Below, one piece after another: positions 28,985-43,532 of a DNA stretch of 53,290 bases (within the stretch, counting starts at the first letter, position 1; each line of letters opens with the position of its first letter). The position numbers were made by a program, and so were the translations under genes. Source of the DNA: Mycobacterium sp. (GTDB lineage Bacteria; Actinomycetota; Actinomycetes; Mycobacteriales; Mycobacteriaceae); assembly GCA_025965975.1 (NCBI GenBank), contig JAOPVX010000049.1:1-53290 (forward strand). Direction: 5' to 3'. The notes beneath the pieces are model-generated. The model saw nothing but the letters and a program-made list of their open reading frames with translations. It was not told the origin of the DNA and made no database searches.

Positions 28985-28999
28985 GGGATCCCGAAAATG

Positions 29000-29042
29000 T
29001 GGAGCCCCCGGCCAGATTGAACTGACGACCGCTCGCTTACAA
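29000..29042. repeat. Decayed copy of the tRNA-Thr 3' half (old attachment-site scar)
   Basis: GATTGAACTGACGACCGCTC and the following CGCTTACAA region (29015-29042, 28 bp) are identical to the intact tRNA-Thr at 43474-43501. The acceptor-stem part (29000-29014, TGGAGCCCCCGGCCA) has substitutions and a one-base gap, so this copy is older than the one at 36407. It sits 15 bases past the fadE pseudogene. Confidence 0.8.
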
Positions 29043-29475
29043 AACAGCTAGACGCCGTTTGGGTCTCACATTTTCATCGAAAGAGTTCAAGTGTTGTCTT
29101 GCTGGAGGTGTGAAGGGCCACATCTGTGACTGTCAATCTCCTGTACGCCGAGGATGATTCGAAGTTCCTGGGTATTGTGGTTCGGCGCGAGAGTGTGGCA
29201 GACCGGTCTCTGCGCGGGGGGCCGAACATCCGAGCCCCCGTCAGGCTTGTACTCGCCTGGTGGGCTAGAGCAAGAGTCCGAAAGGCCTTGTTAGCAGCGG
29301 AAATACATCACCGAGGGAAGTACTGGAGAGGTGTGAAACTGTGGGCAAAATGTGAGCAATCTGTGGCGGCCCGTAGAACCGGTCAGCTCGTTTGCAGCAG
29401 ACTCACATGACCTTCGTACTGGATACTGACCGTTGCGGAGCCCAAAGCTGCAACCACTTTCGTAGCCTTCAAGGC
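29043..29475. other. Intergenic stretch without a supported gene
   Basis: About 430 bases follow the tRNA fragment. A 94-codon plus-strand frame (29126-29410) is open, but it shows no recognisable family, no good ribosome site and no signal peptide, so I do not call it. The stretch probably holds the promoter of the secreted protein at 29476. Confidence 0.5.
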
Positions 29476-29892
29476 GTGAGAAAACTAGTGGAGTTAGCAG
29501 CGGCGACTGTTGTGACGACAGGAGCTTTGGGGTTGGCGGGTTTGGGCCTATCGCTCGGTACCGCCGGGGCCGTGGTTGGCGCGATGCCGGAGTATCACTG
29601 GTGCCCCGGCGACAACTTTGACCCGGGGTGGGGTAACAACTGGGAGCCGAATGCCTGCCACGACGACTTCCATCGCGACGGCGACGGCGGCGACCACAGT
29701 CGCGACTATCGCGGCTATGACGACCGCGGCGGCTACCGCGGCGGCGACTACCGCGACGGACCCCCGCCTCCGCCGGACTACCCCCCTGGCAACTACTACG
29801 TGCCGCCGGGCTACAACGGCCCCCCGCCACCCCCGGGAGGGTGGGCAACACCACCCTTCTGCATTCCGTTTGTGAACTGCCCACCGACCTAG
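29476..29892 (+). CDS. Small exported Gly/Tyr/Pro-rich protein
   Basis: A 138-aa protein with signal peptide (RKLVELAAATVVTTGALGLAGLGLSLGTAGAV), then a Trp/Cys motif YHWCPGDNFDPGWGNNW ... NACHDDFH found in many mycobacterial secreted proteins. A low-complexity Asp/Arg/Gly/Tyr stretch with YRGYDDRGGYRGGDYRDG follows, then a Pro-rich tail ending CIPFVNCPPT. I chose GTG at 29476 because it begins the signal peptide; the frame is open 28 codons further upstream without signal character. Function is unknown. Confidence 0.78.
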   Translation: MRKLVELAAATVVTTGALGLAGLGLSLGTAGAVVGAMPEYHWCPGDNFDPGWGNNWEPNACHDDFHRDGDGGDHSRDYRGYDDRGGYRGGDYRDGPPPPPDYPPGNYYVPPGYNGPPPPPGGWATPPFCIPFVNCPPT

Positions 29893-29901
29893 TCACAGGC
29901 C

Positions 29902-30962
29902 TTAAGTGATCGAGGACCTACTCGAGAGCCCCGATAAAGAACACCGATCGCCGTTTAGCGAGGCGGTGATCTTGGGTTGACTGTCCTCTTGCAGGAACCA
30001 CAGCAGGGCGCCGACTGCGGGGCTCATTTGGAGGGCGTTGTTTGAAAGCGCATATGCGTAGTAGAAGATGGGTTGGTCCTGAAGGTGTTGGCCCACCGGA
30101 AGATCGGCAATTGTCGCGATGCCCAGCTGAGCGAGGTCGCGCGAGGGTCCTACTCCGGAGCGCAGCAGGATCGCGGCGCTGCCGTAAGTTCCTGCCGACA
30201 GGATTACCTCCTTGGCAGGGTCGACGTCGTTGGCAGAGCTGATGACCCCGGTCGCGGTTATGCCGTCAAAGAGCACCTTGTCGACTACGACCTTGCCGAC
30301 GATGGTGAGATTTGGCCTGCGACGCACCTCGTCAGTCAGATAGGCGACCGCTGAGCTCTGCCGTACGCCATCGACGATATTGACCGGGCAGCCGCCGGCA
30401 CCTTCGGGATCAGCCCCGTTGAAGTCGTCGACGTGCTTATAGCCGTCGGCCATTGAAGCGTCGATGAATCCCCGCAGGCTTGGTGTGAGCTCGTCGTCGA
30501 GGCGCTGCCGAATTGAGACCGGGCCAGTGCGCCATGGTAGGCGTCGTCGCCAGAGTCCGTGTTCTCCAGTGCTTTAAACGTTTCGAGGACCTCGTCCCAC
30601 GCCCACCCCTGGACGCCGTGGATTTGCCATGATTCCACGTCTTGGCGTCGGGCACGTATCGCGACGGCCGCGTTCACTGCGGAACTGCCGCCCAGTACCC
30701 GCCCCCGCGGCACAGCCATCTCGGCGGTCGACGCGCCTCCGCGTGCGGTGTAACCCCAATCGAAGGTCGGGGCGGCCACATGCTCAGCGTTAATCAACTC
30801 GGCGGGCATCTCATCGGACGTAAATGCCGGACCGGCCTCCAGCAAGAGCACGCGGCGGCTGGGGTCCTCGCTCAACCGGGCGGCCAGAGTGGCGCCCGCT
30901 GAGCCCCCGCCAACGATGAGAACATCGTCGGGCTGTTTCAGATCGGAAGCCGGATTGCTCAT
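29902..30962 (-). pseudogene. GMC-family FAD oxidoreductase, frameshifted and truncated
   Basis: The first half (30962 to about 30525) carries the FAD motif LIVGGGSAGATLAARLSEDP, EAGP, and the GMC signature PRGRVLGGSSAVNAAVAIR. A frameshift near 30525 moves the rest (IRQRLDDELTPS ... GGCPVNIVDGVRQSSAVAYL, VILSAGTYGSAAILLRSGVGP) to another frame. The similarity stops near 30000, well before the C-terminal catalytic His/Asn region (about 200 residues missing). It overlaps the alcohol dehydrogenase by four bases, so it was once translationally coupled. It resembles choline/alcohol dehydrogenases of the family. Confidence 0.85.
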
Positions 30963-32011
30963 TTCCTCATTCCTTTCGCTTGCGTGTCCGATTGCCGTTG
31001 TGGCTGGGTGCCCGGCGCAATGAGGGCTTTCATGATTTCGCCGGCGCGCAGCGCGTCGAAGGCAGTCAGCGCATCAGGCAGCGGACTGATTACCGTGGTG
31101 AGGTCCGCGACCGTGACTTGTTGGGTGGCCAGCAGGTGGATCGCGCGGTCGAATTCATCGGTGTAGATGTACGACCCCCGCACGGTGATCTCTTTGAGCA
31201 GGATCGTGGCCGAATCAAGGGCAGGGTCGGGCCCCGCTCCGACCACCACCAGGATGCCGCCGGGGGCAAGCAGTTTCAGCGCGGCAGAGGTGGCGGCGGC
31301 GCTGCCTGAGCACTCGAGCACGACGTCGACCCCCGGTCCGCTGGCGTAGTCGTCGGCCGCGTCGGCCGCGAGCGACACAGCGTGGGAGTCCGTCGCGAAC
31401 TGGGCCCGCTGTGCGGCTGGCTCCATGAGGAGGATCTGTGCCGGCGATCTGAGGTGAGCGAGCCTGCAGGCGAGCTGCCCGATTGGGCCGCCGCCGGTCA
31501 CCAACACCGTCCGCCCCGCGAGCTCGCCGGCGAGTTCCACCGCCCGCAGTGCGGTAGCCGTGGGCTCGACCCATGCCGCCTCGAGAGTCCCTAGCTCGTC
31601 GGGGATTCGGCGCAGGTGGCCGGGGAACGCGGCCATCAGCGGTGCCAGCGCCCCATCGGCCTGCAGGCCCAGTGCTGTCTCCAAAGTGGCTTGGCGACAG
31701 AAGTTTGGCCGCCCTGAGCGGCAGTACACGCAGGTGCCGTCCACGTTGCCGTTGGGGTTGACCGCGACCCTCTGGCCGACCGCCCAGTCTGCGACGTCGT
31801 CGCCAACCGTCACGACCCGGCCGGTGGACTCGTGTCCGAGGATGCAGTCACCCCGGTACACCTGCGGCAGCTGGGATGCGTGCAGATCGCTGCCGCAGAT
31901 GCCGCACAGATCGACTTCGACAAGGACCTGATCGGGTCGCAGCGTCGGGCGCGGCCTGTCCTGTAGTGCGATCCGTCCGTCTGCGGTAAGCACCACCGCG
32001 GGCATCGTCAT
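30959..32011 (-). CDS. Zinc-dependent medium-chain alcohol/polyol dehydrogenase
   Basis: A 350-aa MDR enzyme. CGICGSDLHA (about residues 36-45) and GHESTGRV provide the catalytic zinc ligands. CVYC ... NFC supplies only part of the usual four-Cys structural zinc lobe. The Rossmann motif is VTGGGPIGQLA (about residues 170-180). It resembles sorbitol/threonine-type dehydrogenases; the substrate cannot be read from the sequence. ATG at 32011. It is followed by the GMC pseudogene with a four-base overlap and preceded on the same strand by DoxX and aldo/keto reductase genes, a redox gene set. Confidence 0.87.
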   Translation of the reverse strand: MTMPAVVLTADGRIALQDRPRPTLRPDQVLVEVDLCGICGSDLHASQLPQVYRGDCILGHESTGRVVTVGDDVADWAVGQRVAVNPNGNVDGTCVYCRSGRPNFCRQATLETALGLQADGALAPLMAAFPGHLRRIPDELGTLEAAWVEPTATALRAVELAGELAGRTVLVTGGGPIGQLACRLAHLRSPAQILLMEPAAQRAQFATDSHAVSLAADAADDYASGPGVDVVLECSGSAAATSAALKLLAPGGILVVVGAGPDPALDSATILLKEITVRGSYIYTDEFDRAIHLLATQQVTVADLTTVISPLPDALTAFDALRAGEIMKALIAPGTQPQRQSDTQAKGMRK

Positions 32012-32083
32012 CTTCAGTCAGCTCGATGTCTTTGTGCGCAGGCCACGCGACTCCAGTCTCGGGTCGATGTGTATGGAACTTCG

Positions 32084-32464
32084 TTACGGCGTAAACGAAT
32101 ACGGCCCGAAACGGCCCCAGGCGACGAAGACGGCGAGCACCAGCAGCACCGCATTCATTGCGACCATTGGCGCTTCTTTGCGCCGAGCGTGCACCGCGGC
32201 CGCACCGGCCATCACCAGTGCGAGCCCGACTGCAGCCAGCGGTACCAGTATCGGGGCGACATGCACTGCGGCCGGCAGGACTAGCCCGATGGCGCCGAGT
32301 ATCTCGGCGAGTCCGATCAATCGGATACTGGTCGGGCTGAAGTCGTGCGCCCAGCCCTGGCCAGACGTGACGAGCTTGTCTTTGGGCACAAACTGTTTCA
32401 TCAGTCCGCTTCCGGCGAAGACAGCCGCTAAGACGATCGCGATAATCCACAGCGCCAGGTTCAT
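32084..32464 (-). CDS. DoxX-family membrane protein
   Basis: A 126-aa protein with four membrane segments, matching the DoxX family: N-terminal ALWIIAIVLAAVFAGSGLMKQF, central RLIGLAEILGAIGLVLPAA, then two more helices ending in VAWGRFGPY. DoxX proteins are linked to redox and thiol stress but their exact role is unclear. ATG at 32464 has AGGAGCT upstream. It lies in a minus-strand group with dehydrogenases. Confidence 0.85.
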   Translation of the reverse strand: MNLALWIIAIVLAAVFAGSGLMKQFVPKDKLVTSGQGWAHDFSPTSIRLIGLAEILGAIGLVLPAAVHVAPILVPLAAVGLALVMAGAAAVHARRKEAPMVAMNAVLLVLAVFVAWGRFGPYSFTP

Positions 32465-32556
32465 CCAGAGCTCCTAATCGTTGTCATGGTTAATTGTCAG
32501 AGGCTCAATTGGTTTGGCATGAAGCGATGCTCTGTGGCGTGCGCCGAGGACACATG

Positions 32557-33429
32557 TCAGCTGAACTCCTGGTTGAGGAGGGCGATCTCGCGATCACCCA
32601 AGCACAAGCCGTCGGCAGCAAGGTTTTCAGCGAGGTGGGCGCGAGTGCGCGTTCCCGGAATCAGCAGTACATTCGGCGCGACGACCATCAACCACGCGAG
32701 GGCGACCTGAGCAGCGCTCGCATCGTGAGCAGCGGCAACGCCGGTGACGACCGGGTTGGTGAGGATCGCCTCGCGCTGCGCCCGAGGATAACCCAAGGGA
32801 CAGAACGGCACGAACGCGATCTCCCGTGCACTGCATTCGTCCAAGAGGGGCGTGCTGTGACGAGCCGCGAGATTGAAGAAGTTCTGCACGCAGACGATTT
32901 CGGTGACCTCCAGCGCCCGCATCAGGTGGTCGCGAGTGACGTTGCTGATCCCGATTCCGCCGATGAGTCCCTCGTCTCGGGCTGTCATCAGTGCGCCGAG
33001 TTGATCAACGAACCGGGCATCGGGTGCGGCGTTGTCCATCACCCGCAGGTTGACGACGGTGAGTTGCTCGACCCCCAGCGTTGCGAGATTGTCTTCGATG
33101 CCCGCGCGCAGTTGGTCGGGTTCGTCGTAGGGCAGCACGGCTCCGGAATCGTCGCGGCGGGCCGCCACCTTGCTCACCAACGCCAAACCGTCGGGGTAGG
33201 GGTGAAGCGCGTCCCGGATCAGTTCGTTGACGACCCCGGGCCCGTAGTATTGGGCGGTATCGATGTGATCTACCCCGGCGTCAACGGCGGCCCGTAGCAC
33301 TGCGATGGCTTCGTCACGGTCCCGCGGTGGGCCGAAGACGCCGTCTCCGGCCAGCTGCATCGCGCCGTACCCGACACGCCAAACCAACTTATCGGCAAGG
33401 CGATAGCGGGAGCGCATCGAGGTGTTCAT
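32557..33429 (-). CDS. Aldo/keto reductase
   Basis: A 290-aa aldo/keto reductase. VGYGAMQLAG begins the TIM barrel. The catalytic tetrad is D in DHIDTAQYYG (Asp and Tyr), Lys in LVSKVAARR, and the usual His replaced by Asn in VVNLRVMDN, as in several bacterial AKRs. GIGISNV and LIPGTRTRAHLAENL contact NADPH. ATG at 33429 (MNTSMRSRYRL); a second ATG at 33417 is possible. The enzyme reduces aldehydes or ketones; the substrate is unknown. Confidence 0.87.
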   Translation of the reverse strand: MNTSMRSRYRLADKLVWRVGYGAMQLAGDGVFGPPRDRDEAIAVLRAAVDAGVDHIDTAQYYGPGVVNELIRDALHPYPDGLALVSKVAARRDDSGAVLPYDEPDQLRAGIEDNLATLGVEQLTVVNLRVMDNAAPDARFVDQLGALMTARDEGLIGGIGISNVTRDHLMRALEVTEIVCVQNFFNLAARHSTPLLDECSAREIAFVPFCPLGYPRAQREAILTNPVVTGVAAAHDASAAQVALAWLMVVAPNVLLIPGTRTRAHLAENLAADGLCLGDREIALLNQEFS

Positions 33430-33459
33430 CGACGATGGCGGGGGTTCTTGCTCCGGCGG

Positions 33460-33828
33460 TCAAGCATAAATGGGCGCCACATCGAAGAACACGCGGTAGT
33501 CGTCGATCTTGCCTGCGGCGTCGGCATGGAAAATCGTGACGCACGGGATGGTGACCTGCCGGCCGTCCTTACGGTCGTACGTGACTTTCAACTCGACGAT
33601 GGTGTCGTTGCCGAAGTTCCATTCGTTCACGACCTCGTGATGCAGGCCCGCGATCGTTGCAAAGAACGCGGTTGTGCCCGTGCGGATCTCGTCGACACCG
33701 ACCATCGGTTGGCCGTTGCCGAAAACAACGCGCCCGTCCTTGGCGAAAAGCGGGACCAACGCCGCAACATCCATCGCGTCGGTCATCGCGAAGAGGTCGC
33801 GCGTGTGCGGACGCGTTGTGGCATCCAT
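33460..33828 (-). CDS. SnoaL/NTF2-like protein
   Basis: A 122-aa cone-fold protein (SnoaL/ketosteroid isomerase superfamily) with DAMDVAALVPLFAKDGRVVFGNGQPMVGVDEI and a C-terminal strand DDYRVFFDVAPIYA. I chose ATG at 33828, which has GGAAGGATCC upstream; the frame is open to 33885 but the extra residues look non-coding. Members bind or convert small hydrophobic molecules. It is probably the first gene of the minus-strand redox group that ends with the GMC pseudogene. A 255-base gap separates it from the MarR gene. Confidence 0.8.
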   Translation of the reverse strand: MDATTRPHTRDLFAMTDAMDVAALVPLFAKDGRVVFGNGQPMVGVDEIRTGTTAFFATIAGLHHEVVNEWNFGNDTIVELKVTYDRKDGRQVTIPCVTIFHADAAGKIDDYRVFFDVAPIYA

Positions 33829-34083
33829 GGGATCCTTCCCTCGCCTCTTGGTCCAGCGTGTCCACCACATTAGATGATTTATCACGCTGATTGCAAGGCT
33901 GGTTCGGCCACGGCTGATGAGACGACACGGATGCGCAGTAGATTAACCGGACCTGGTCTCAGCTAGGTACAGCCAGGGCCTAGAGGGTGAGTGATACGTC
34001 ACTCTGCGGGGGCATCGGCGACCTTGCGGTTGAACGCTTCGCAGAGCGGAGTGGCCTTACGGACCTCCGATGTTCGCACCTGC

Positions 34084-34590
34084 TCACCAGGGAGCTGGCG
34101 GCAAGGAGCTATCGAAGTTGATGTTGACCTTGACGTGCTCCAACGCCGCGGTAAGGGGTGCGACGAGCTCGTCGGGCAGCGGGTCGAAGAACATTCGCCG
34201 GACTAAGGCCACGTGACCGGGAGCTGCCGCGTCGATCGCTTCGCGACCCGCCTTTGTCAGAGTCGCGTCGGTTGCCCTGCCGTCGTCCTGTGATGGAACA
34301 CGCCGAGCGAGGCCGCGCTCACACAACCGGCGCAGCTGATGCGACGCGCGGCTCCGTTCCCAGCCGATCAGCGCTGCGAGGTCGGAGACTTGCAGGCGCC
34401 CGCCGGGTGCCTCGGTTAACGCATTCAGAACGTGGTAGTCGGCAAGCGACATATCGCTATCACTTTGCAGCTGCCGATTCATCTCATAGTTCACCCGCAT
34501 CTGAACGGCCATGAACGCACGCCAGGCTCGCAGCTCGGCTGCTGACAGCCAAGGTCCTTGAGCGGCCTTCCGGCGCTGACTACCTGACAA
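34084..34590 (-). CDS. MarR-family transcriptional regulator
   Basis: A 168-aa winged-helix regulator. The dimer helices lie at WLSAAELRAWRAFMAVQMRVNYEMNRQL. DMSLADYHVLNALTEAPGGRLQVSDLAALIGWERSRASHQLRRLCERGLARRVPSQDDGRATDATLT is the typical MarR recognition helix plus wing, with the conserved DxR. TTG at 34590 (LSGSQRRKAAQ) has GAAGGA at the right spacing; the frame is open upstream but without family similarity. It is divergent from a SnoaL gene. A perfect palindrome lies between them, and it could control both directions. Confidence 0.85.
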   Translation of the reverse strand: MSGSQRRKAAQGPWLSAAELRAWRAFMAVQMRVNYEMNRQLQSDSDMSLADYHVLNALTEAPGGRLQVSDLAALIGWERSRASHQLRRLCERGLARRVPSQDDGRATDATLTKAGREAIDAAAPGHVALVRRMFFDPLPDELVAPLTAALEHVKVNINFDSSLPPAPW

Positions 34591-34767
34591 TTCGACTATT
34601 CCTTCTCGGACTATCCGCCAAGGATATCGCGCTAAAGGCCGGTAACTCGTTCGACGCGTCGTCGCCACCGACCATCGATGGCAGCCCTGTAGATCTCGGC
34701 CAACCGCGATGGAAGGGCATGGCCAGAAGTGGTTTGCCGAAACCACAAGCACGCAACTGCTTGACGT

Positions 34768-34782
34768 GTCACGTAACGTGAC
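34768..34782. promoter_or_regulatory. Candidate MarR operator palindrome
   Basis: GTCACGTAACGTGAC is a perfect 7-1-7 inverted repeat (34768-34782). It lies 34 bases upstream of the SnoaL GTG at 34817 and 177 bases from the MarR start. A TTGACG element directly precedes it. The size and symmetry suit a MarR-type dimer. Confidence 0.6.
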
Positions 34783-34816
34783 CAAGGTGAAACGGGGCTT
34801 TCGAGGAGGATCCACC

Positions 34817-35173
34817 GTGACTGAGACCGTCAACAACTTGATGGAAGCGAACTTGCTCGAGGTATTCAACGAACGCGATGCCCAACGGAGGGCCGTGGCA
34901 ATTGAGAGCACCTACGCTCCGGATGTTCGCTGGACGGACGACGAGGGGGTCGTCGTCGGTCGTGAAGCGTTAGAAGCCAAGGCAACAGCGTTGCAGTCGC
35001 AAATGCAGGGACTGGTTTTCACTAAAGCCAGTCCTGTCTACCAAACCCGCGGATTTGGGTACTTGGCGTGGACGCTCGGACCTGACGGCGGCGACCCAGT
35101 TGCCAGCGGATTCGATGTGGCGGTCGTGCGCGACGACCTCATCTCCGAGCTCTACACGGTCATCACGACGTAG
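34817..35173 (+). CDS. SnoaL-like polyketide-cyclase/isomerase-fold protein
   Basis: A 118-aa NTF2-fold protein: NLMEANLLEVFNERDAQRRAVAIESTYAPDVRWTDDEGVVVGREALEAKA is the usual N-terminal half, and GFGYLAWTLG with FDVAVVRDDLISELYTV the strands. GTG at 34817 has GAGGAGG upstream, which decides it over an earlier in-frame start at 34709. It probably forms an operon with the hydrolase that follows, and is divergent from the MarR gene. Confidence 0.82.
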   Translation: MTETVNNLMEANLLEVFNERDAQRRAVAIESTYAPDVRWTDDEGVVVGREALEAKATALQSQMQGLVFTKASPVYQTRGFGYLAWTLGPDGGDPVASGFDVAVVRDDLISELYTVITT

Positions 35174-35189
35174 GCGGGGACGCAATCTG

Positions 35190-35378
35190 GTGCTCACCAA
35201 TCCGGAAGGCAGTTCGCAACCGGCTGACATTTCCCAATCGCCACCTGCCGCCGCGGACGGGGGTGACGGCCCGTCACAGCTGCTAGGGGCGTTCATCAAC
35301 TACCTTCGTGCGCGGCCCACCAGCGGCGACTCCGAAAGCACAGGATTCGATGAGGCTCGTCTGAGCTGGAAGGCGTGA
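35190..35378 (+). pseudogene. Out-of-frame N-terminal part of the alpha/beta hydrolase gene
   Basis: A GTG at 35190 opens a frame reading ... QLLGAFINYLRARPTSGDSE ... FDEARLSWKA-stop. This looks like the helical cap start of an HSL-type hydrolase, and the next frame (from 35375) continues with the hydrolase core. The two frames meet at 35375-35378, so a small indel near 35370 probably split the gene. Confidence 0.5.
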
Positions 35379-36136
35379 CACGCGGCATCAGTGAGTTAGG
35401 GCGTGTCCCCGCTATCACGCTGCAACCACAGGTCGGGCGCCCCGATCGCACCGTCCTCTACTTCCATGGCGGCGGCTACGTCAGTGGCTCACCGCCAGAA
35501 CGCTATCTTCCGTTGGCCGCCGCGGTGGCTCTGGCCGCCAATGCCCGAGTGCACGTGGTGGACTATCGGCTCGCTCCAGAAACCCCCTTCCCTGGCGCCT
35601 TCGACGACTGCCTTCACGCCTATCACTGGCTTGTCACACACGGCGGCGCGGAACCGCAAAGGCTGGCCGTACTCGGCGATTCGGCCGGCGGTAACTTAGC
35701 GGTCGCTGTCACTGCCGCGGCCAGGGATCAAGGCTTGGCACTTCCCGCCCGAATCGCCCTGATCTCCCCGCTAGCTGACCTGACGTTCAGCGGCGCCTCG
35801 ATCGAAGAGCGCAAACACTTGGACCCCTTAGTCACTCGTGAAATGCTCGAATCCACGGTGACCGACTACCTTGCCGGTAGTGACCCCCGCGACCCCCGGT
35901 GCTCTGCGATCTTCGCCGACGTGCACGGTTTCCCCCCGATGCTCATCCAGGTCGGCGAGAACGAAATCCTCTACGACGATGCCACCCGCCTCCGAACTGT
36001 TGCCACCACCGCAGGTGTCGACGTGGCCTTCGAGTCCTGGCGACATGGAATCCACGTCTGGCCGGTATTTATCTCCGCGGGGCTGCCCGAATCCGCTGCC
36101 GCCATCGAACGCTTGGCAACCTTCTTCAAAACCTAA
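35375..36136 (+). CDS. Alpha/beta hydrolase of the hormone-sensitive-lipase (LipH/LipI) family
   Basis: A 253-aa core hydrolase: HGGGY oxyanion motif (about residue 31), VDYRLAPETPFP, nucleophile elbow GDSAGG (about residue 100), Asp in the VGENEILYDDA region, and His in GIHVWP. It acts on small esters or lipids in the cytoplasm. The family usually has a 50-60-residue cap before the first strand; here that part lies in another frame (35190-35378), so the gene may be frameshifted. GTG at 35375 is the first start in the core frame. Whether it makes an active protein is uncertain. Confidence 0.8.
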   Translation: MTRGISELGRVPAITLQPQVGRPDRTVLYFHGGGYVSGSPPERYLPLAAAVALAANARVHVVDYRLAPETPFPGAFDDCLHAYHWLVTHGGAEPQRLAVLGDSAGGNLAVAVTAAARDQGLALPARIALISPLADLTFSGASIEERKHLDPLVTREMLESTVTDYLAGSDPRDPRCSAIFADVHGFPPMLIQVGENEILYDDATRLRTVATTAGVDVAFESWRHGIHVWPVFISAGLPESAAAIERLATFFKT

Positions 36137-36180
36137 GCCGCACATTGGGTGTCGGAGACCTCGCAGTGATCGAACTGCCG

Positions 36181-36346
36181 CCCGACACCACATTGCCCGA
36201 CACCACATTGCCCGACACCGAGGTGATTGGCTTGACGAGTACCACGGCTGACCGTCAAGTGCAGGAATGCGGTGTCGAGTGTCGTTCGCGTATCTGATCT
36301 CGGGGCGCACCATCGTGACACCGAGGGACCGGGACACCGAGGGACC
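36181..36346. repeat. Two short tandem duplications downstream of the hydrolase
   Basis: CCCGACACCACATTG occurs twice plus a partial third unit (36181-36219). GACACCGAGGGACCGG is repeated at 36317-36332 and 36333-36346. Both lie in apparently non-coding DNA just before the tRNA fragment at 36407. I see no gene from 36137 to 36406. Confidence 0.85.
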
Positions 36347-36406
36347 TAGTCGAACACCATTGCGATCACGGTTGACGGGCGAACACGCAGTGAGACGGAC
36401 TTTTAA

Positions 36407-36455
36407 TGGAGCCTCCTGTCAGGATTGAACTGACGACCGCTCGCTTACAAGGCGA
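36407..36455. repeat. Exact 49-bp copy of the tRNA-Thr 3' half (probable att site)
   Basis: This segment, starting TGGAGCCTCCTGTCAGG, is identical over 49 bp to 43458-43506, the part of the intact tRNA-Thr from the anticodon loop to the 3' CCA. Identity stops sharply on both sides. This is the pattern left when a tyrosine integrase inserts DNA at a tRNA anticodon loop and rebuilds the tRNA, pushing the old 3' half away. The displaced half lies downstream of the tRNA, as expected. Confidence 0.9.
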
Positions 36456-36548
36456 TTGAAGCCCAGTTCTGCTGGGTTCGCACGTATTCGCGCGTGCCCG
36501 GTACCTGCGAATACGTGTTCGCGGTTGGTCGCCCTAATCCGCGGGGGC

Positions 36549-36594
36549 TGACGGCAAAGTGACGGCAAATCATTGGTAGTGATCATTGGTAGTG
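36549..36594. repeat. Arm-site-like repeats inside the island, near the left att copy
   Basis: TGACGGCAAA occurs at 36549-36558 and 36560-36569, followed by two copies of ATCATTGGTAGTG (36569-36581, 36582-36594). The same TGACGGCAAA motif recurs inside the other island end (43383-43400). Paired short repeats at such distances from a core are typical of integrase arm-binding sites. From 36595 to about 37070 I find no gene that I can support. Confidence 0.6.
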
Positions 36595-37069
36595 CCGTAC
36601 CAGGCTGTGTGTACACCACGACCTACTTAGCCTCGAGAAAGTCACACGGGTGCTCGGGGCCGGGCGCCAGGAGGGCACCGTCGACGGTGCGGCAGGCGGA
36701 CAAGCGCCGCAATGGCGCCCGTGTCATCCAGGCATGGGTGCCGTTGTCGTGTGTCGATCGCCGCGAGATACGGCGGAGCGTGTAGACCGACCGCAGTGAC
36801 CTCTTCGTCCCGAACGCTGATTCGATGTACCAGGACTGGTCGGCCAGTGCCAGCTGCACCGATGTGATCGTCAATGGTGTCGAGTGCCCCGTCGTATTGA
36901 TCTGTCGGCTGCCTCGTTGCTGCCAATCAACCTTCTGATCCGTCGGCACGGGCCGATGGTGCGACCAAGCACGATACGAGTTCAATTGTCGTGTAGGTGG
37001 AGGTGCCGGGAAGCCTGAATGTCGTCATCTTTGTAGTCAGAACTGTCGTCAGCCAACAATGCGAAACAG

Positions 37070-37375
37070 TGGCATCCCCGAAGAGCTCGTCGGCCTGGAC
37101 CCGCTGCTTTATAACGTTGAGGCACTGTTCGAAATGGTCGAGCACCTCGCCCCTTGTCTCCAGTAGGAGCGATCCTGACCGAGAGTCCACTTGATCGTCC
37201 GGACGGTGAACAGGCCATGTGGCTGGTGCAGTCGCACGTACGGTTACGTGTCGACCCACATGCCGCCGACGCGTGCCCGGCGGTCGACCAGGATGACCTT
37301 CTGATCGCGAGATAGGTACGCCTGCTCAACCGCCAATACCCCAGCGACTGGGCCCGTTACACCCACACCGGACGA
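37070..37375 (-). pseudogene. Remnant of a flavin-dependent monooxygenase gene
   Basis: Translated pieces in different minus-strand frames read, in order, VILVDRRARVGGMWVDT, then YVRLHQPHGLFTVRTIKWTLGQD, then TRGEVLDHFEQCLNVIKQRV. They match the FAD-binding and N-terminal region of NAD(P)-binding monooxygenases (GGMW then the YPYVRLHQP motif). At least two frameshifts break it, and both the N-terminal nucleotide-binding glycines and the C-terminal half are gone. Confidence 0.65.
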
Positions 37376-37411
37376 TAACCACACAAACTTCCCTCGGCAG
37401 CGCGCATTCCC

Positions 37412-37807
37412 GTGGCGTTCCGCTTTGATGAGTCCCGTCCCTCGCTGACCCTGATCCACAAGAATGGAGCTGTGGTGCGCGAACTGCTAGCGGACCTGTA
37501 TACGCGGATCACTCGGTTGATCGACGAGCATGATCCGCAGATAGTGCTGTCCGAACAGGCCGACCGTCGGCAGACGCGGTTCGAGCGCACCGGGACACTG
37601 GCCGATCTGGACCGCGCGATCACCCTAGGCCAAGATGCGGTGGATGCGACCCCATCGGATCATCCCGAGAGGCCCGGGCGCCCGTCCAACCTCGGGAACG
37701 CGCTGCAGACCCGGTTTGAGCACGCGAGCCCATTGTGGTTCCTCCCACGGTCTTTTAACCGGGATTGTCTGAGAAGGGTCGAACGCCGAACTCCCGCCCA
37801 CAAATGA
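37412..37807 (+). pseudogene. Truncated TPR-protein fragment
   Basis: The frame from GTG 37412 contains LADLDRAITLGQDAVDATPSDHPERPGRPSNLGNALQTRFE. This is one to two tetratricopeptide units of the kind found in actinobacterial CHAT or NB-ARC proteins. After about residue 108 the similarity stops at a junction near 37725, and the remaining residues look random. The normal proteins are many hundreds of residues long, so this is a broken end. Confidence 0.6.
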
Positions 37808-37864
37808 CGAGCCAGTAACGGACCGCGACAGAACCAAAGCTCCGAACAGGGAAGGGGGACGCGC

Positions 37865-40303
37865 GTGGCAGGCTTTCCCGACGGCGTGCCGTGGGTGCTT
37901 CAGGCAGCTGGTCCGGCGCTGACGGTCGACGCCGCGCCTTTCCAGGCCCGGATCTCGCAGACGACCGGTCATATCCAGCTGGCCGGGCCGGATTTGTCCG
38001 GCACCGCGGGGGCGAACGTCGTTGACCTGAGCCCGCCGGCGGTTCTCACGCCGAACGGGCCGATGCTGTTCGGCGCCGTGGTTTCGTCGACGCCCGTGGC
38101 TAATGGGCTCTCCGTCCGGCAGGCGGTCGGCGACGCCCAGATCGAGGCAAGTCTCACCTTCGCAGGGGAAGGCGTGCTGCGTTACGAGGTCGTGGACTGG
38201 GGATCGCTCCAGCCGCTGCAGACGGCGATGGCCGGGCCCACCAGCGCGCAGGAACACTTCTTCGGTTTGGGCGAGAAGTTCAACGCGCTCGATCAGGCCG
38301 GCAACGTCGTCGACATGCTGACCTTCGACGACCCGGGCACCAAGCACGACCGCTCCTACAAGGTGGCTCCGTGGTTCATCAGCACCCGCGGCTACGGCTT
38401 GCACCTGGACTCCTCGGCGGAGAGCAGCTTCGACATGCGGGCGGGAGCGGCCGACCGGTTCGTCGTCACCAACCGCTTCCCCACCTTGCGTATCAACTTG
38501 GTGTGCGGGCCCGCCCTGACCGACGTCCTGACCCGTTACAGCGGACTCACCGGACGGCCGCCGCTGCCGCCACCGTGGGCGTTCGGCCCGTGGATCTCAT
38601 CTGATATTTGGCGCAGCGGAGGTGAGGTCCGCTACGCGGCCACCCAGTACGGCGACCGCGGCATCCCTGCTTCGGCGTTCGTGTTCGACTCTCCCTGGGA
38701 GGTTGCCTACAACGACTTTCAGTGGAACATGACCCAGTTCGGGGCTGACGCCACTATCGAGGGGGTCCACTACCCCGGGTTCGCCTCGTCGGCGGACATG
38801 ATGCAGTTCCTGCAGAGCAACGGCCTGAAGGTCATCTGCTGGATGACGCCGTTCGTCAATCTGAGCTCGGACGACGAGAACGTCGCCGGCCAGAACCTCG
38901 GACAGGCGACCAATTACGCCGACGGGGCGGCGAAGGGGGCGTTCGTGCGGCAGGCGCCGGACGGCGCGCCGCTGGTTGTCCCCTGGTGGAAAGGCCGCGG
39001 CAGCCCGGTCGACTTCACCGGCGCGGCGGGACAGCAATGGCTGCAGGACCAACTCCAGAAGGTCGTCGCGGGATCCAGCGTGGTGACGGCTTCCGGCGCC
39101 ACCGAGCCGGTGGTAGGCGGGTTCAAGACAGACGACGGCGAAAGCGGCAACGGAACCAATACCTACATACCGCTAACGGCAGCGTACGCGGACGGGCGGA
39201 CGGGCACTCAGATGCGGAACGGCTACTGCCTGGAGTACCACAAGACGGTGTGGAACGTGCTCGGAACGTCCGGAGTCCTGTTGGCCCGCAGCGGCTTCGC
39301 CGGCTCGCAGGCCTTTCCGGGCCACTGGGCCGGGGACAATGAGCCGAACTTCGGCGACAACGGGCTGCCGAGCGTGATCGTGGCCGGGCTGTCGGCCGCC
39401 ATGAGCGCGTACTCGATCTGGGGCCATGACATCTGCGGCTACCAGGACATCAACTTCAGCCAGTCAATGCCCAACCTATTCATGCGGTGGACCCAGTTCG
39501 GCTGCTTCTCACCGATCATGCAGATGCATCGCCAGGTCACCCGCGAGCTGCAGTTCCCCTGGCGGTTCGGCGACCAGGCCCTGGCCAACTACCAGTTCTT
39601 CGCCCGGCTTCACGTCCGCCTGTTCCCGTACATCTACACCTACGCGCACCAGGCGAGCACAACCGGGTTGCCGATCATCCGCCCGCTCGTCCTGCTCAAC
39701 CAGGCCGACGCCAACACGTATGCGGTCCAGCACGTCTACTGCTTCGGCAACGAGTTCCTGGTGGCCCCGATGCTGGCCCCGAACGCGACGCAGCGCCAGC
39801 TCTACCTTCCCGCCGGGACCTGGCTGGACTTCTGGACCAACGCCCCTCATATGGGCGGCCAGCTCATCACGTGGACCAACGCCAACCAGGCGCAGTTCCC
39901 CCTGTTCGTACGCGCGGGCGCCATCATCCCCATGCTGCGCAGCGACGTGCGCACCCTCTGCGACGCCAACTACGTTAACAACCCCCAGGTCAGCACCATG
40001 GACGGCAGCTGGCTGATCCAGGCCTATCCGGCCGGCACCTCCGGGTTCAGCGCGTTCGACGGCACCAGTCTGCAGTGTCAGGGCACGGCCGCGTCGGGAG
40101 CGATCACTATCTCCTCGACGGCCCGCACGATCACGCTGCGCATTCTGGGCAACCAGCCGAGCTCGGTCCGGCGCGACAACGTGGTCCTGCCCGAGCAGGG
40201 AAAACCCGGATCGGGAGTTCCCGGCTGGCGCTATGACGCGGCGGCAAGTTTCATCGAGATCGACTTCACCCATGCCGGGGGCACGACGATCATCGAGTAC
40301 TGA
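37865..40303 (+). CDS. GH31 alpha-glycosidase
   Basis: An 812-aa GH31 enzyme: N-terminal beta-sandwich (residues 1-215) with HFFGLGEKF, then the catalytic barrel. The nucleophile is Asp423 in GGFKTDDGE and the acid/base is Asp491 in GHWAGDNEP, as in YicI-type enzymes; WISSDIW, CWMTPFVN, RSGFAGSQ and SIWGHDICGY are further family motifs. C-terminal beta domains follow. No signal peptide or membrane segment is visible. GTG at 37865 has AAGGGGGAC upstream. It probably releases alpha-linked glucose, galactose or xylose. The next gene is a copper radical oxidase, 37 bases away. Confidence 0.9.
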   Translation: MAGFPDGVPWVLQAAGPALTVDAAPFQARISQTTGHIQLAGPDLSGTAGANVVDLSPPAVLTPNGPMLFGAVVSSTPVANGLSVRQAVGDAQIEASLTFAGEGVLRYEVVDWGSLQPLQTAMAGPTSAQEHFFGLGEKFNALDQAGNVVDMLTFDDPGTKHDRSYKVAPWFISTRGYGLHLDSSAESSFDMRAGAADRFVVTNRFPTLRINLVCGPALTDVLTRYSGLTGRPPLPPPWAFGPWISSDIWRSGGEVRYAATQYGDRGIPASAFVFDSPWEVAYNDFQWNMTQFGADATIEGVHYPGFASSADMMQFLQSNGLKVICWMTPFVNLSSDDENVAGQNLGQATNYADGAAKGAFVRQAPDGAPLVVPWWKGRGSPVDFTGAAGQQWLQDQLQKVVAGSSVVTASGATEPVVGGFKTDDGESGNGTNTYIPLTAAYADGRTGTQMRNGYCLEYHKTVWNVLGTSGVLLARSGFAGSQAFPGHWAGDNEPNFGDNGLPSVIVAGLSAAMSAYSIWGHDICGYQDINFSQSMPNLFMRWTQFGCFSPIMQMHRQVTRELQFPWRFGDQALANYQFFARLHVRLFPYIYTYAHQASTTGLPIIRPLVLLNQADANTYAVQHVYCFGNEFLVAPMLAPNATQRQLYLPAGTWLDFWTNAPHMGGQLITWTNANQAQFPLFVRAGAIIPMLRSDVRTLCDANYVNNPQVSTMDGSWLIQAYPAGTSGFSAFDGTSLQCQGTAASGAITISSTARTITLRILGNQPSSVRRDNVVLPEQGKPGSGVPGWRYDAAASFIEIDFTHAGGTTIIEY

Positions 40304-40340
40304 CCACCGCACGTCCGGCACTGAGCAAGGAGGAATCCGC

Positions 40341-42884
40341 ATGGTGAACCTCGGCAATGCATGGCACATCCCCACCAACCCACAGCCGCGCGGGCGGGGC
40401 GGCATGCGCGACCCCATCGGCGCGCTCGTGCCGGGGATGGCCATCACCATCTTCAGCGGCAATCAGGACCAGGGGCTCGGCGGCAGCCCGGGCAACCAGT
40501 TGCAGGTGGGCAGCAGCGTCTTCTTTAAGCGCACGACCGACGCCGCCTGGACTGAGGCCCCCATGCTGTTCTGGAGCGCGGCCGACAACGACAAGTTCTA
40601 CGCCGCCACCCTTGCGGCCGACACCTTCGCCGCCGGTGACGTGGTGCAGTACTACCTGCGCATCCCGTACAGCGACCATGACACCACCTTCCTGCTGGCC
40701 AACGGCCCTGTCTCCGCCACCACCGCCGACGAGACTGCCGCGCGGGGCGCCCCGTTCACGTTCACGGTGGAGTCCGCCGCCGTCCGGGGCCAGTGGGGAC
40801 CGGTGTTCCCGCTGCCCAACGTGGCTGTGCACGCCCACCTGCTGCCCAATGGCCGAGTGCTCATTTGGGGCCGACGAGATCAGCCGTCCCAGTGCCTGGA
40901 CGTGCACGCCTGCACGCCCTTCCTTTGGGACCCTGGGACCGGCCAGGTGACCAATACCCCTCAGCCCACGCTGGCCGACGGGACCACCACGATCAACCTC
41001 TTCTGCTCCGGCCACACGTTCCTGCCGGACGGCCGGCTGATGGTGGTGGGCGGGCACCTGCTCGACAGCCAGGGGTTGAACCAGGCCTGCTTGTACGACC
41101 CCGTGGCCAACACCTGGACCCCCACCGCAGTCATGAATAACGGCCGCTGGTATCCGACCGCCACCACCCTGGCCGACGGCAGCCTGCTTGTCACTTCCGG
41201 CAGCTTCCTGCAGAACGGCAAGACGCCCAACAACCCCATCCCGCAGGTCTGGAACAACGGCGCCTGGACCTGCCTAAAGGGGCTGCCCGATGGGGTCTTC
41301 CCACTCTTTCCCCGCATGCACGTGACCTCCTCGGGGAAGGTCTTCATGCCCGGCTCGTTGGCGGCATCCTGGACACTGGACTTGACCGGCGGCGGGAAAT
41401 GGACAAGCAGCCAGGGGCGGGCCCAGAAGGCTCGGGACTACGCGCCGTCGGTGATGTACGACGTCGACAAGATCATTTACATCGGCGGTGGCAACGGGCC
41501 CAACGGCCTGGCGCCCACCGCGGTGGCCGAGACTATCGACCTCCAGGCAACCTCGCCGGCATGGCAGGCCACCGCCCCCATGCAGTTCGCCCGCCGGCAG
41601 CACAACGCCACCATCCTGGCCGACGGCACCGTTTTGGTCACCGGCGGCACCCGGGGTGGCGGCGGCCTGGGCGGTCAGGGTTTCAACGATCTGACGCTGG
41701 GCCAGCCGGTGCACACTGCGGAACTCTGGGACCCGGTGGGCGGGCAATGGACGGAACTGGTGGCTGAGCAGGTTGACCGCTGCTATCACAGCACCGCGGT
41801 GCTGCTGCCGGATGGCAGCGTGCTCAGCGCCGGCGGCGGCGAGTACCGGCCCACCAGCGGCCCCACCGCCCCCCAGAACGACCCGTTCGACAGCCACCGG
41901 GACGGCCAGGTCTTCTCACCGCCCTACCTGTTCCAGGGGCCCCGGCCGCTTATCACCAACGCGCCGGTGGCGGTGGACCACGGGACCACCTTCCAGGTGG
42001 ACACCGAGCAGGCGGCCGACGTCGCCAAGGTCACCATGATCCGCCTCTCGTCAGTCACCCACTCCTTCAATATGAACCAGCACATCAACGTGCTGGCCTT
42101 CGAGCCCAGTGCGGGCAGCTTGACCGTCACCGCCCCCGCCACCCCCAACGTCTGCCCGCCCGGGCACTACCTGCTGTTCCTGATCTCGAAGCTCGGCGTG
42201 CCCTCGGTAGCGAAGGTGATCCAGGTCCAGTGGACACCGGGCGGCACAACGGCCGCCGCAGCCAAGATTGGCCCGCCGGTGGCCAGCGCGGCACCCGCAG
42301 GGGCGGCTCCTCCCGCCGACGCCTTTGCCGTGCAGGCCGACGTGCTCGCGAACGCCGCCGGGCCGGCTGTGGTGGTGGGACTGCTGGGGACCTGCCCCTA
42401 CGGCATTGGCGCATGCTGGGGCGGCGCCCACGAGGCGCTGGCCACCCTGCAGGGTGTGCACGCGGTGGACCCCATTGCGGACGCCGAGAACTCCACGGCC
42501 CGCGTCTTCCTCACCCACGACCACCTGCCCGCCCTTGACCAGTGGGAGCTGGACTTCCAGCAGATGGTCAACCAGAGCTATCGGCTGCGTGGCATCGAGA
42601 TGAGCCTGGCCGGCACTGTCAGCGCCCAGGGCGACGGGCTGGTGCTGGACGCCGCCGGCCAGCGCCCCGCTGTGCAGTTGGTGGCGATGGTGGCCGCCGA
42701 CAAGATCCAGTGGGACAACGCCGACGGGGCTCCCAAAGCCCTGGACCCCCAGGAAGCGGGGGCCTTCGCCAGCCTCTCCGCCCAGGTCGCCAACCTGGCC
42801 CCGGGGAAGGCCGTGACCGTCACCGGCCCCCTGAAGGAAACCGCCGCGGGCTTCCGACTCGAAGTGCGCCTTTTCACCACGTAA
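40341..42884 (+). CDS. Copper radical oxidase (galactose/glyoxal oxidase type) with extra C-terminal domain
   Basis: An 847-aa protein. Kelch-type blades (about residues 150-500) are followed by the DUF1929 domain (about 520-630). The copper-site residues are all present: Cys222 (FCSG) and Tyr271 (GRWYPTATTLADG) for the Cys-Tyr cofactor, Tyr482-His483 (CYHSTAVLLPDG) and His574 (THSFNMNQ). It oxidises primary alcohols or aldehydes to give hydrogen peroxide. The N-terminal 150 residues and a C-terminal part (about 640-847) are not recognised. There is no signal peptide, although known members are mostly secreted. ATG at 40341 has AAGGAGG upstream. Operon with GH31. Confidence 0.9.
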   Translation: MVNLGNAWHIPTNPQPRGRGGMRDPIGALVPGMAITIFSGNQDQGLGGSPGNQLQVGSSVFFKRTTDAAWTEAPMLFWSAADNDKFYAATLAADTFAAGDVVQYYLRIPYSDHDTTFLLANGPVSATTADETAARGAPFTFTVESAAVRGQWGPVFPLPNVAVHAHLLPNGRVLIWGRRDQPSQCLDVHACTPFLWDPGTGQVTNTPQPTLADGTTTINLFCSGHTFLPDGRLMVVGGHLLDSQGLNQACLYDPVANTWTPTAVMNNGRWYPTATTLADGSLLVTSGSFLQNGKTPNNPIPQVWNNGAWTCLKGLPDGVFPLFPRMHVTSSGKVFMPGSLAASWTLDLTGGGKWTSSQGRAQKARDYAPSVMYDVDKIIYIGGGNGPNGLAPTAVAETIDLQATSPAWQATAPMQFARRQHNATILADGTVLVTGGTRGGGGLGGQGFNDLTLGQPVHTAELWDPVGGQWTELVAEQVDRCYHSTAVLLPDGSVLSAGGGEYRPTSGPTAPQNDPFDSHRDGQVFSPPYLFQGPRPLITNAPVAVDHGTTFQVDTEQAADVAKVTMIRLSSVTHSFNMNQHINVLAFEPSAGSLTVTAPATPNVCPPGHYLLFLISKLGVPSVAKVIQVQWTPGGTTAAAAKIGPPVASAAPAGAAPPADAFAVQADVLANAAGPAVVVGLLGTCPYGIGACWGGAHEALATLQGVHAVDPIADAENSTARVFLTHDHLPALDQWELDFQQMVNQSYRLRGIEMSLAGTVSAQGDGLVLDAAGQRPAVQLVAMVAADKIQWDNADGAPKALDPQEAGAFASLSAQVANLAPGKAVTVTGPLKETAAGFRLEVRLFTT

Positions 42885-43457
42885 TCGCCGGTGCACCCGG
42901 CATCGGGCCCGGCGTTCTGAGTGTGGGAAAGGGCACTTGGAGCCGCCTTGCCCACACCAGTCGTTCATCTGCAGGGGGGGTCAAGCGGTACGCATGCGCA
43001 CGTCACTGCTAGGCAGCGGCGCAGTTGTTGGTGCTCATGTCGGTGAGACGCTCGATGGTTGCCAGCTAACCGAGAGAGTCAGGTCCAATTTAGGTCCCGA
43101 GGCAGGGTTTGCAGCACTAACTATAAGTAATGAGCTGCCTAACACTGGTGCGCGAAACTGGGATTGGACCAGCAGTCGATGCTTGCGACAGGCTGGACGC
43201 ACCAGGGGCAGATTAGCGACTCGACGAGGCATAAGAAGTCCGCACGGTAGGCTTCGGACCTGCGATTTCGTTCTTCGCCGCCGGTCAGGGAATCGGAACC
43301 GGTTCTCGGACCGGTTTGGTCCTGCCGCACATGGGCCGACGTCCCGATTTCCGCCGCCCGGGGTGACGGCACGGAATCGAGTTGACGGCAAATGACGGCA
43401 CAACGCAATCTTGATCGCCGTCGGATCACGACATAAGACCAGTTAGCTGCGCTTTTG
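42885..43457. other. Non-coding end of the island with arm-site-like repeats
   Basis: I see no gene that I can support between the oxidase stop and the tRNA. TGACGGCAAA (43383-43392) and TGACGGCA (43393-43400) repeat the motif found beside the left att copy. These lie 58-75 bases from the tRNA 3' end, inside the island. Confidence 0.55.
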
Positions 43458-43532
43458 TGGAGCCTCCTGTCAGGATTGAACTGACGACCGCTCGCTTACA
43501 AGGCGAGTGCTCTACCACTGAGCTAAGGAGGC
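43458..43532 (-). tRNA. tRNA-Thr (anticodon TGT), CCA encoded
   Basis: Reading the minus strand, GCCTCCT pairs with AGGAGGC (acceptor stem), followed by discriminator T and encoded CCA. The D-stem is GCTC/GAGC. The anticodon arm is CTCGC-CTTGTAA-GCGAG, giving anticodon TGT. The T-arm is GTCAG-TTCAATC-CTGAC. All stems pair fully. Copies of its 3' half at 36407 and 29000 mark it as an integration target. Confidence 0.97.

Follow-up and report, generated by a model that had tools for sequence, protein, structure and literature searches.

The window, meaning the whole 53,290-nucleotide stretch of Mycobacterium sp. DNA analysed here, very probably holds a stack of insertions at one tRNA-Thr(TGT) gene, with an integrase island on the right that presumably came last and at least one older insertion beyond it. 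The right island has kept both att ends and the tail of its integrase, related islands in other genomes of the genus are intact or half decayed, and the content of the site varies from relative to relative. The features are collected in Table 1.

The tRNA-Thr(TGT) site and the right segment

The window's sole tRNA is tRNA-Thr(tgt), recognized by both ARAGORN and Rfam. A preliminary description had placed this gene at 43458-43532, an exact 49-bp copy of its 3' half at 36407 and an older copy at 29000, all in one orientation. Each of these points was borne out, the older copy being 91% identical. The copies share one orientation with start-to-start spacings of 7408 and 7051 nucleotides, and every copy spans the tRNA from its 3' end to the anticodon loop. 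As a control for chance, two matches to the 49-bp half were obtained in none of 100 shuffles. Elsewhere in the source genome, a 7.44-Mb draft in which the window lies on contig C209, there are just two partial matches (79-81%), to a tRNA gene pair on contig C315. Because the draft is in 449 contigs, frameshifts in the window may be errors.

Table 1. Features of the window discussed in the text (att, attachment site; E-values and scores as reported by the programs).
Feature	Coordinates	Strand	Evidence
Left flank: cutinase	26305		
Left flank: acyl-CoA dehydrogenase in two overlapping frames, adjoining the oldest tRNA half on its left	27105-28984		
Older decayed tRNA-Thr 3' half	28998..29042	+	91% match of about 45 bp, whole-genome E=1.1e-10
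Stop codon and arm-type repeats of second integrase family	29334..29358	+	24/25 bases as in G105, E=4e-5
Left segment: GMC oxidoreductase N-terminal part, two overlapping frames	29902..30962	-	PF00732 in both pieces
Left segment: zinc-type alcohol dehydrogenase	30959..32011	-	PF08240/PF00107
Left segment: aldo/keto reductase	32557..33429	-	PF00248 1.3e-39
Left segment: SnoaL-like protein	33460..33885	-	PF12680 4.4e-13
Left segment: MarR-type regulator	34084..34911	-	PF12802 1.2e-13
Left segment: second SnoaL-like protein	34709..35173	+	PF12680 3e-7
Left segment: alpha/beta hydrolase	35375..36136	+	PF07859 2.3e-55
attR core of right island, displaced tRNA-Thr 3' half (49 bp, exact)	36407..36455	+	
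Distal arm (attR) of right island	36456..36603	+	nhmmer, E=6.5e-31
TGACGGCAAA repeats in attR arm	36549 and 36560		
Right-island cargo: glycoside hydrolase family 31 (GH31)	37865..40303	+	PF01055 2.4e-59
Right-island cargo: galactose-oxidase-like kelch protein	40233..42884	+	PF09118 1.1e-23
tRNA-side arm (attL) of right island	43222..43457	+	nhmmer, E=3.5e-45
Last eight codons and stop of lost tyrosine integrase	43224..43250	+	alignment with 3' end of G243 integrase gene
TGACGGCA repeats in attL arm	43364, 43383, 43393		
attL core, 3' half of intact tRNA-Thr(TGT)	43458-43506		
Intact tRNA-Thr(TGT)	43458..43532	-	ARAGORN; Rfam tRNA 70.6 bits

Next to both the intact gene and the exact half, the right segment carries sequence related to the att arms of an integrase-bearing island in another genome of the genus, G243. 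The arms were located with nhmmer models that excluded the window (attL built from three relatives, attR from four), and the next-best window match of these models, at 0.04, is the repeat of the opposite end. The motif TGACGGCAAA occurs three times in the 53 kb (36549, 36560 and 43383) against 0.10 expected, and no shuffle out of 100 reaches three; all three copies fall within the right segment, at most about 105 bp from a tRNA copy. At the tRNA side, the alignment between the window and G243 starts within the integrase reading frame, and six of the eight residues in the integrase tail are identical, as read by eye from the alignment. The preliminary description had stated that no integrase remains. 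This holds for the gene itself, since none of the genome's 38 PF00589 matches lies on the window's contig and no integrase gene was found in the right segment; it does not hold for traces, which are present at 43224-43250 and 29334-29358.

Judged from its sequence, the right segment is the remnant of an integrase island and not a complete island. It is flanked by 49-bp exact direct repeats of the tRNA 3' end, both of its arms are related to those of the integrase-bearing island, and, at a cutoff of 1e-8, none of its cargo turned up at the site in 54 relative loci, which cover at most about 17 kb next to the tRNA. Serial integrase insertion, as previously proposed, is thus upheld for this segment, both ends of which align with the G243 island. 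It does not classify as a prophage or as an ICE/AICE, as Pfam detected neither phage structural genes nor conjugation or replication genes among 30 window proteins (24.1-47.2 kb). Beyond the att arms and tRNA halves, the only right-island DNA found among the relatives compared is 47 bp (36610-36656, 83%), and the galactose-oxidase-like kelch protein has no match at 1e-60 among the 117 other genus genomes searched.

The right flank encodes a response regulator, a kinase and an HIT protein (Pfam), the first two of which we take to be phoP and phoR. The phoPR stretch was scored in 296 of 396 genus genomes, and, leaving aside the window's own, the 40 highest-scoring loci were taken, at up to 20 kb each; owing to this choice the sample consists of nearer relatives and is not even. 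The closest matches to PhoP among named records belong to Mycobacterium and Mycolicibacterium. With 14 named mycobacterial PhoP loci added (of 80 PhoP contig matches), this gave the 54 relative loci (L036-L046, L057, L059, L092 and L116-L155). All 54 have phoP, a match to gene 43556 and tRNA-Thr(tgt). The cutinase of the left flank was found in 27, at 485-12,450 bp from the tRNA, and the gene content between the two varies. The shortest distance belongs to G013, a near-empty site of the kind that the preliminary description had suggested looking for; strains with just one of the two segments, its other suggestion, were not seen among the relatives examined. Conserved synteny across 29-43 kb, which it had held to be incompatible with insertion, is absent: gene content is not conserved in the 54 loci, and the segment genes have no in-place orthologs there at 1e-8, with a few matches of 30-34% (L042, L043 and L127). 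Its view of the flanking genes as core does not extend to the acyl-CoA dehydrogenase at 27105-28984, for which the 54 loci gave no protein match at 1e-8 and a 99-bp DNA match in L059 only. The split of this gene into two frames is either a frameshift or a sequencing error. Extra tRNA-Thr halves occur in four of the 54 loci (L041, L046, L142 and L044, the last being a cassette case described below); the half in L142 (2.9e-4) may be due to chance, because shuffled queries gave three matches over the same loci.

Related islands and the left segment

Of 297 genus genomes, six have the paired repeat, counting the window's own, and the reversed control pattern had no occurrence among the matches listed. 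It adjoins a tRNA-Thr half or the tRNA in four of the five other genomes (G243, G074, G274 and G263); in the fifth, G148, it has no tRNA beside it. The G243 island measures 79 kb and lies at tRNA-Thr, with a 50-bp tRNA half at C1:722011, TGACGGCA-type arms at both ends and a PF00589 tyrosine integrase that ends about 210 bp from the tRNA. In G194 the same two ends (attL 5.2e-45, attR 2e-20) are about 30 kb apart and enclose a truncated integrase of which residues 276-440 are left, and in G263 the two island ends fall on two contigs. Short scars, each holding two serial tRNA halves at tRNA-Thr, are seen in G074 and G274. Those in G074 (L238:13632-16029) lie within 2.4 kb of the tRNA, one of them about 50 bp away. 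With this definition of the group's att arms, remnants can be recognized even where the integrase is gone.

Integrases at tRNA-Thr(TGT), which the preliminary description had recommended searching for, do exist in G243 and G044; the G044 enzyme is 52% identical to that of G243 and lies beside tRNA-Thr(tgt), without the arm repeats. Relatives of the G243 integrase at 1e-40 are present in 74 of 248 genus genomes, own included. The neighboring tRNAs at 30 integrase loci were Gly(ccc) in 11, Tyr(gta) in 5, and Thr(tgt), Pro(ggg) and Arg(ccg) in 2 each, with none in 8; the two Thr(tgt) cases are the query itself and G044. The att models had no match in any of the 54 relative loci; the island family is therefore rare and absent from the close relatives examined. 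Nor did they match the stretches examined in G102, G105, G218 and G281, despite a nearly identical tRNA. Among viral contigs, seven have the arm repeat, and in none of these was a related integrase (at 1e-5) or a tRNA half detected.

A Pfam scan of ten large ORFs from the G243 island yielded a CoA-transferase, a P450, an acyl-CoA-ligase type protein, two aldehyde dehydrogenases, a monooxygenase, a ChsH2-like protein, an MlaD protein, an NB-ARC ATPase and one ORF without match. No phage or conjugation protein was found among the ten, and a scan against a phage library left two of the island's ORFs without match. From these ten ORFs it looks like a catabolic island. The left segment of the window is similar to it in flavor; neither segment shares DNA with the G243 island beyond the ends.

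The left segment carries the trace of a second integrase family. In G105 the counterpart of this trace comes immediately after the C-terminal end of a different tyrosine integrase and 71 bp from tRNA-Thr, and in L046 a tRNA half has a fragment of a related integrase beside it. Thus, the relics in the window, G105 and L046 indicate that another integrase family used the same tRNA-Thr. In G105 the C-terminal part of this integrase (L313:17345-17737) adjoins the tRNA, and the upstream frames appear broken. The phage records matching this C-terminus (best 10 matches) are annotated as integrases. An integrase model built from the genome's own integrases had no match in the window or in the 54 loci, a result that by itself would speak against integrases; the same model did match the G243 integrase. 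The model also missed the short relic in L046, which was detected by tblastn with a second query.

More than one insertion had been proposed, and the second tRNA half and second integrase relic agree with this. The left segment has a tRNA half at its outer end and lacks matching att arms at both ends, the G243-type models matching neither, and the relic of the second family sits at its left end, the wrong end for a simple insertion. Because the ends do not pair, “one 7.4-kb island” is not supported there, and in our reading the left segment is composite and has been rearranged. By eye, and from its distance to the second integrase arms, a third tRNA half, very decayed, seemed plausible at 29434-29478; it was rejected by local alignment: the half expected at about 29430 is not detectable, with 626 of 1291 other window stretches scoring equally well.

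tRNA-Thr/HNH cassettes and viral sequences at the same tRNA

A different kind of element was found at the same tRNA in relatives. Searches with a 135-aa HNH protein (PF13392 3.7e-7) revealed a relative, sometimes just a piece, 24-129 bp behind tRNA-Thr(tgt) and on the same strand in 39 of the 54 phoP loci; in one locus it lies 1.7 kb from the tRNA, and 14 are without HNH at 1e-15. The pair of tRNA-Thr and HNH occurs in both orientations among these loci. The five that share the window's anticodon-stem variant (L045, L046, L123, L128 and L137) all lack the HNH gene, which 40 of the 49 others have, a link that may reflect only kinship. At 1e-25, this HNH is present in 102 of 248 genus genomes and absent from the window genome, and phage records carry relatives at 37-40% (best 10 matches).

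All 30 HNH loci examined in the genus have tRNA-Thr(tgt). The HNH gene is preceded by a divergent tRNA-Thr in 19, stands beside an intact native-type tRNA-Thr in 9, and in 2 combines a native-type tRNA with an HNH of about 60% identity. In 6 of the 19 (L278, L282, L288, L290, L291 and L292), halves of the native tRNA-Thr flank the cassette, in opposite orientation to it and with the break in or close to the anticodon arm; being nearly identical there, L290 and L291 hardly count as independent. The cassette lies at about 1200-2000 in each of the six (HNH turned to +), and in L282 the native half starts 1-2 bp behind the HNH stop codon. Two more of the 19 have the 5' half only (the contig of L281 stops short of the other side) and 11 have neither. 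The same split is found in Mycobacterium sp. 1164966.3 (L044:5012-9090), with a further large ORF inside HNH that is cyclase-like by our own reading. A group I intron was considered as the cause of the split native tRNA and rejected, as no intron family matched in seven loci. At seven loci, L285, L294, L298, L299, L300, L301 and L302, two opposed HNH genes lie near one tRNA-Thr, as if two cassettes competed for the site.

From these arrangements we infer that HNH may cut the native gene and be copied in, the tRNA of the cassette taking over. The cassettes of the seven relatives would then possibly be natural “cleave and rescue” elements, difficult to lose since the host no longer has its own tRNA, and, if so, a natural counterpart of engineered cleave-and-rescue drives. 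Against this, 11 of the 19 cassette loci are without native halves, and intact native tRNA and HNH coexist in nine loci. We offer only tentatively, as somewhat doubtful, the broader proposal that the tRNA-Thr(TGT) anticodon loop is the shared target of two unrelated classes of mycobacterial element, namely tRNA-rebuilding integrase islands and tRNA-HNH cassettes that split the native gene and supply a divergent replacement by natural “cleave and rescue.”

Viral sequences carry parts of the same tRNA. Of 31 viral contigs matching the tRNA core, 28 match over most of the tRNA. Three GC-rich contigs have a 46-49-bp tRNA-Thr half only (L188:917-965, L204:637-682 and L198:13564-13611), likely the att site of phages using tRNA-Thr. 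When ten proteins, taken from viral contigs and from the G243 island, were compared with a phage library, L198 gave tail proteins and L204 an unknown family. Furthermore, the tRNA-Thr 3' half has matches in 39 Gordonia phage records; in the 34 of them listed (for example NC_031099 31905-31948), the match covers 44 bp at 84-86% and falls within a gene whose annotation is immunity or transcriptional repressor. This placement presumably resembles integration-dependent immunity.

Proposed history and comparison with known systems

In the history that we propose, a tyrosine integrase of the family whose two nearest examples sit at tRNA-Thr(TGT) would have inserted an island. The attP of this element would have carried its own tRNA 3' half, so that the tRNA was rebuilt and the old half displaced to the far end, at 36407. 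The right island would then have shrunk by deletion, losing the integrase body and keeping both att arms and the last integrase codons, and what is left would be the stretch that now holds GH31 and the galactose-oxidase-like gene. At least one earlier insertion would have left the half at 28998 and probably also the catabolic genes at 29.9-36.1 kb; the left segment may have arrived with the second integrase type, whose trace lies within it, and past excision may have taken place as well. We infer that the left segment is older than the right; the near copy of the tRNA half is exact and the far copy decayed, which fits with the right island having been the last to arrive. The window would thus offer an ordered stack at one tRNA, pairing an older, blurred remnant with a less decayed island remnant that retains its two att ends, and relatives show further stages, from 79 kb with integrase through 30 kb with truncated integrase to 2-7 kb without.

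The most serious competitor concerns the left segment, which might consist of ordinary strain-specific genes caught between an old scar and a later insertion, the right segment alone being an integrase island. We regard this as possible, with the balance tilted against it. It would make the earlier phrase “two tandem islands” overstated and is compatible with the main reading of the right segment. The ends of the left segment have no matching arms, the aldo/keto reductase is not unusual cargo, given relatives at 45-66% in 78 of 117 other genus genomes (79 of 118 with own), and the acyl-CoA dehydrogenase outside the scar is likewise not conserved in place. The second tRNA half and the second integrase relic speak for insertion instead, as do the two serial halves at tRNA-Thr in G074 and G274.

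It is very unlikely that the window's tRNA halves derive from tRNA-HNH cassettes and not from integrases. Native tRNA halves in L044 and six genus genomes are indeed split within or close to the same anticodon arm, yet the window genome has no HNH relative at 1e-25, the flanks of the right segment are integrase att arms, and the window's halves lie kilobases from the intact tRNA and do not flank a cassette. Chance, or duplication debris without any insertion event, is less probable still, and we give it almost no credence in view of the exact 49 bp, the common anticodon-loop end, the single orientation, the att arms and the integrase tail. Serial insertion at tRNA-Thr(TGT) remains our preferred reading.

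Several known elements resemble parts of this locus. The mycobacteriophages Dori, Sbash, Mask and ThulaThula encode tyrosine integrases with 44-45% identity to that of G243 across 98% of its length, and the 49-bp tRNA core had no match in Mycobacterium phage records at 1e-3, a search in which a diverged core could be missed. Mycobacteriophage Island3 is reported to integrate in tRNA-Thr (Msmeg_6152) (PMC3029335). It thus shares with the window an integrase at tRNA-Thr; Island3 is a phage, and the cited passage does not state the isoacceptor (PMC3029335). Likewise, actinobacterial AICEs with a pSE211-type integrase at tRNA-Thr are known (PMC3218068). AICEs are conjugative, whereas no transfer protein was found by Pfam among the ten ORFs scanned of the G243 island. 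HNH genes are described inside horizontally acquired mycobacterial tRNA clusters (PMC6582537). Our literature search, thin on subscription journals, found no published description of the island group or of the tRNA-Thr/HNH cassettes.

Tandem accretion and deletion have reportedly been described for ICESt1-related elements by Pavlovic et al. in 2004 (cited in PMC3218068). Tandem accretion of islands at a tRNA is likewise known from the Klebsiella Asn-tDNA islands (PMC4891358). As far as these accounts go, both systems are like the window in serial insertion at one site, direct repeats and shrinkage by deletion; the window differs in its host, in the use of tRNA-Thr(TGT) and in its integrase family, and it is here reconstructed from the att arms of relatives. 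The process is therefore a known one, tandem accretion at a tRNA, and the integrase group is new for tRNA-Thr(TGT) and rare in the genus.
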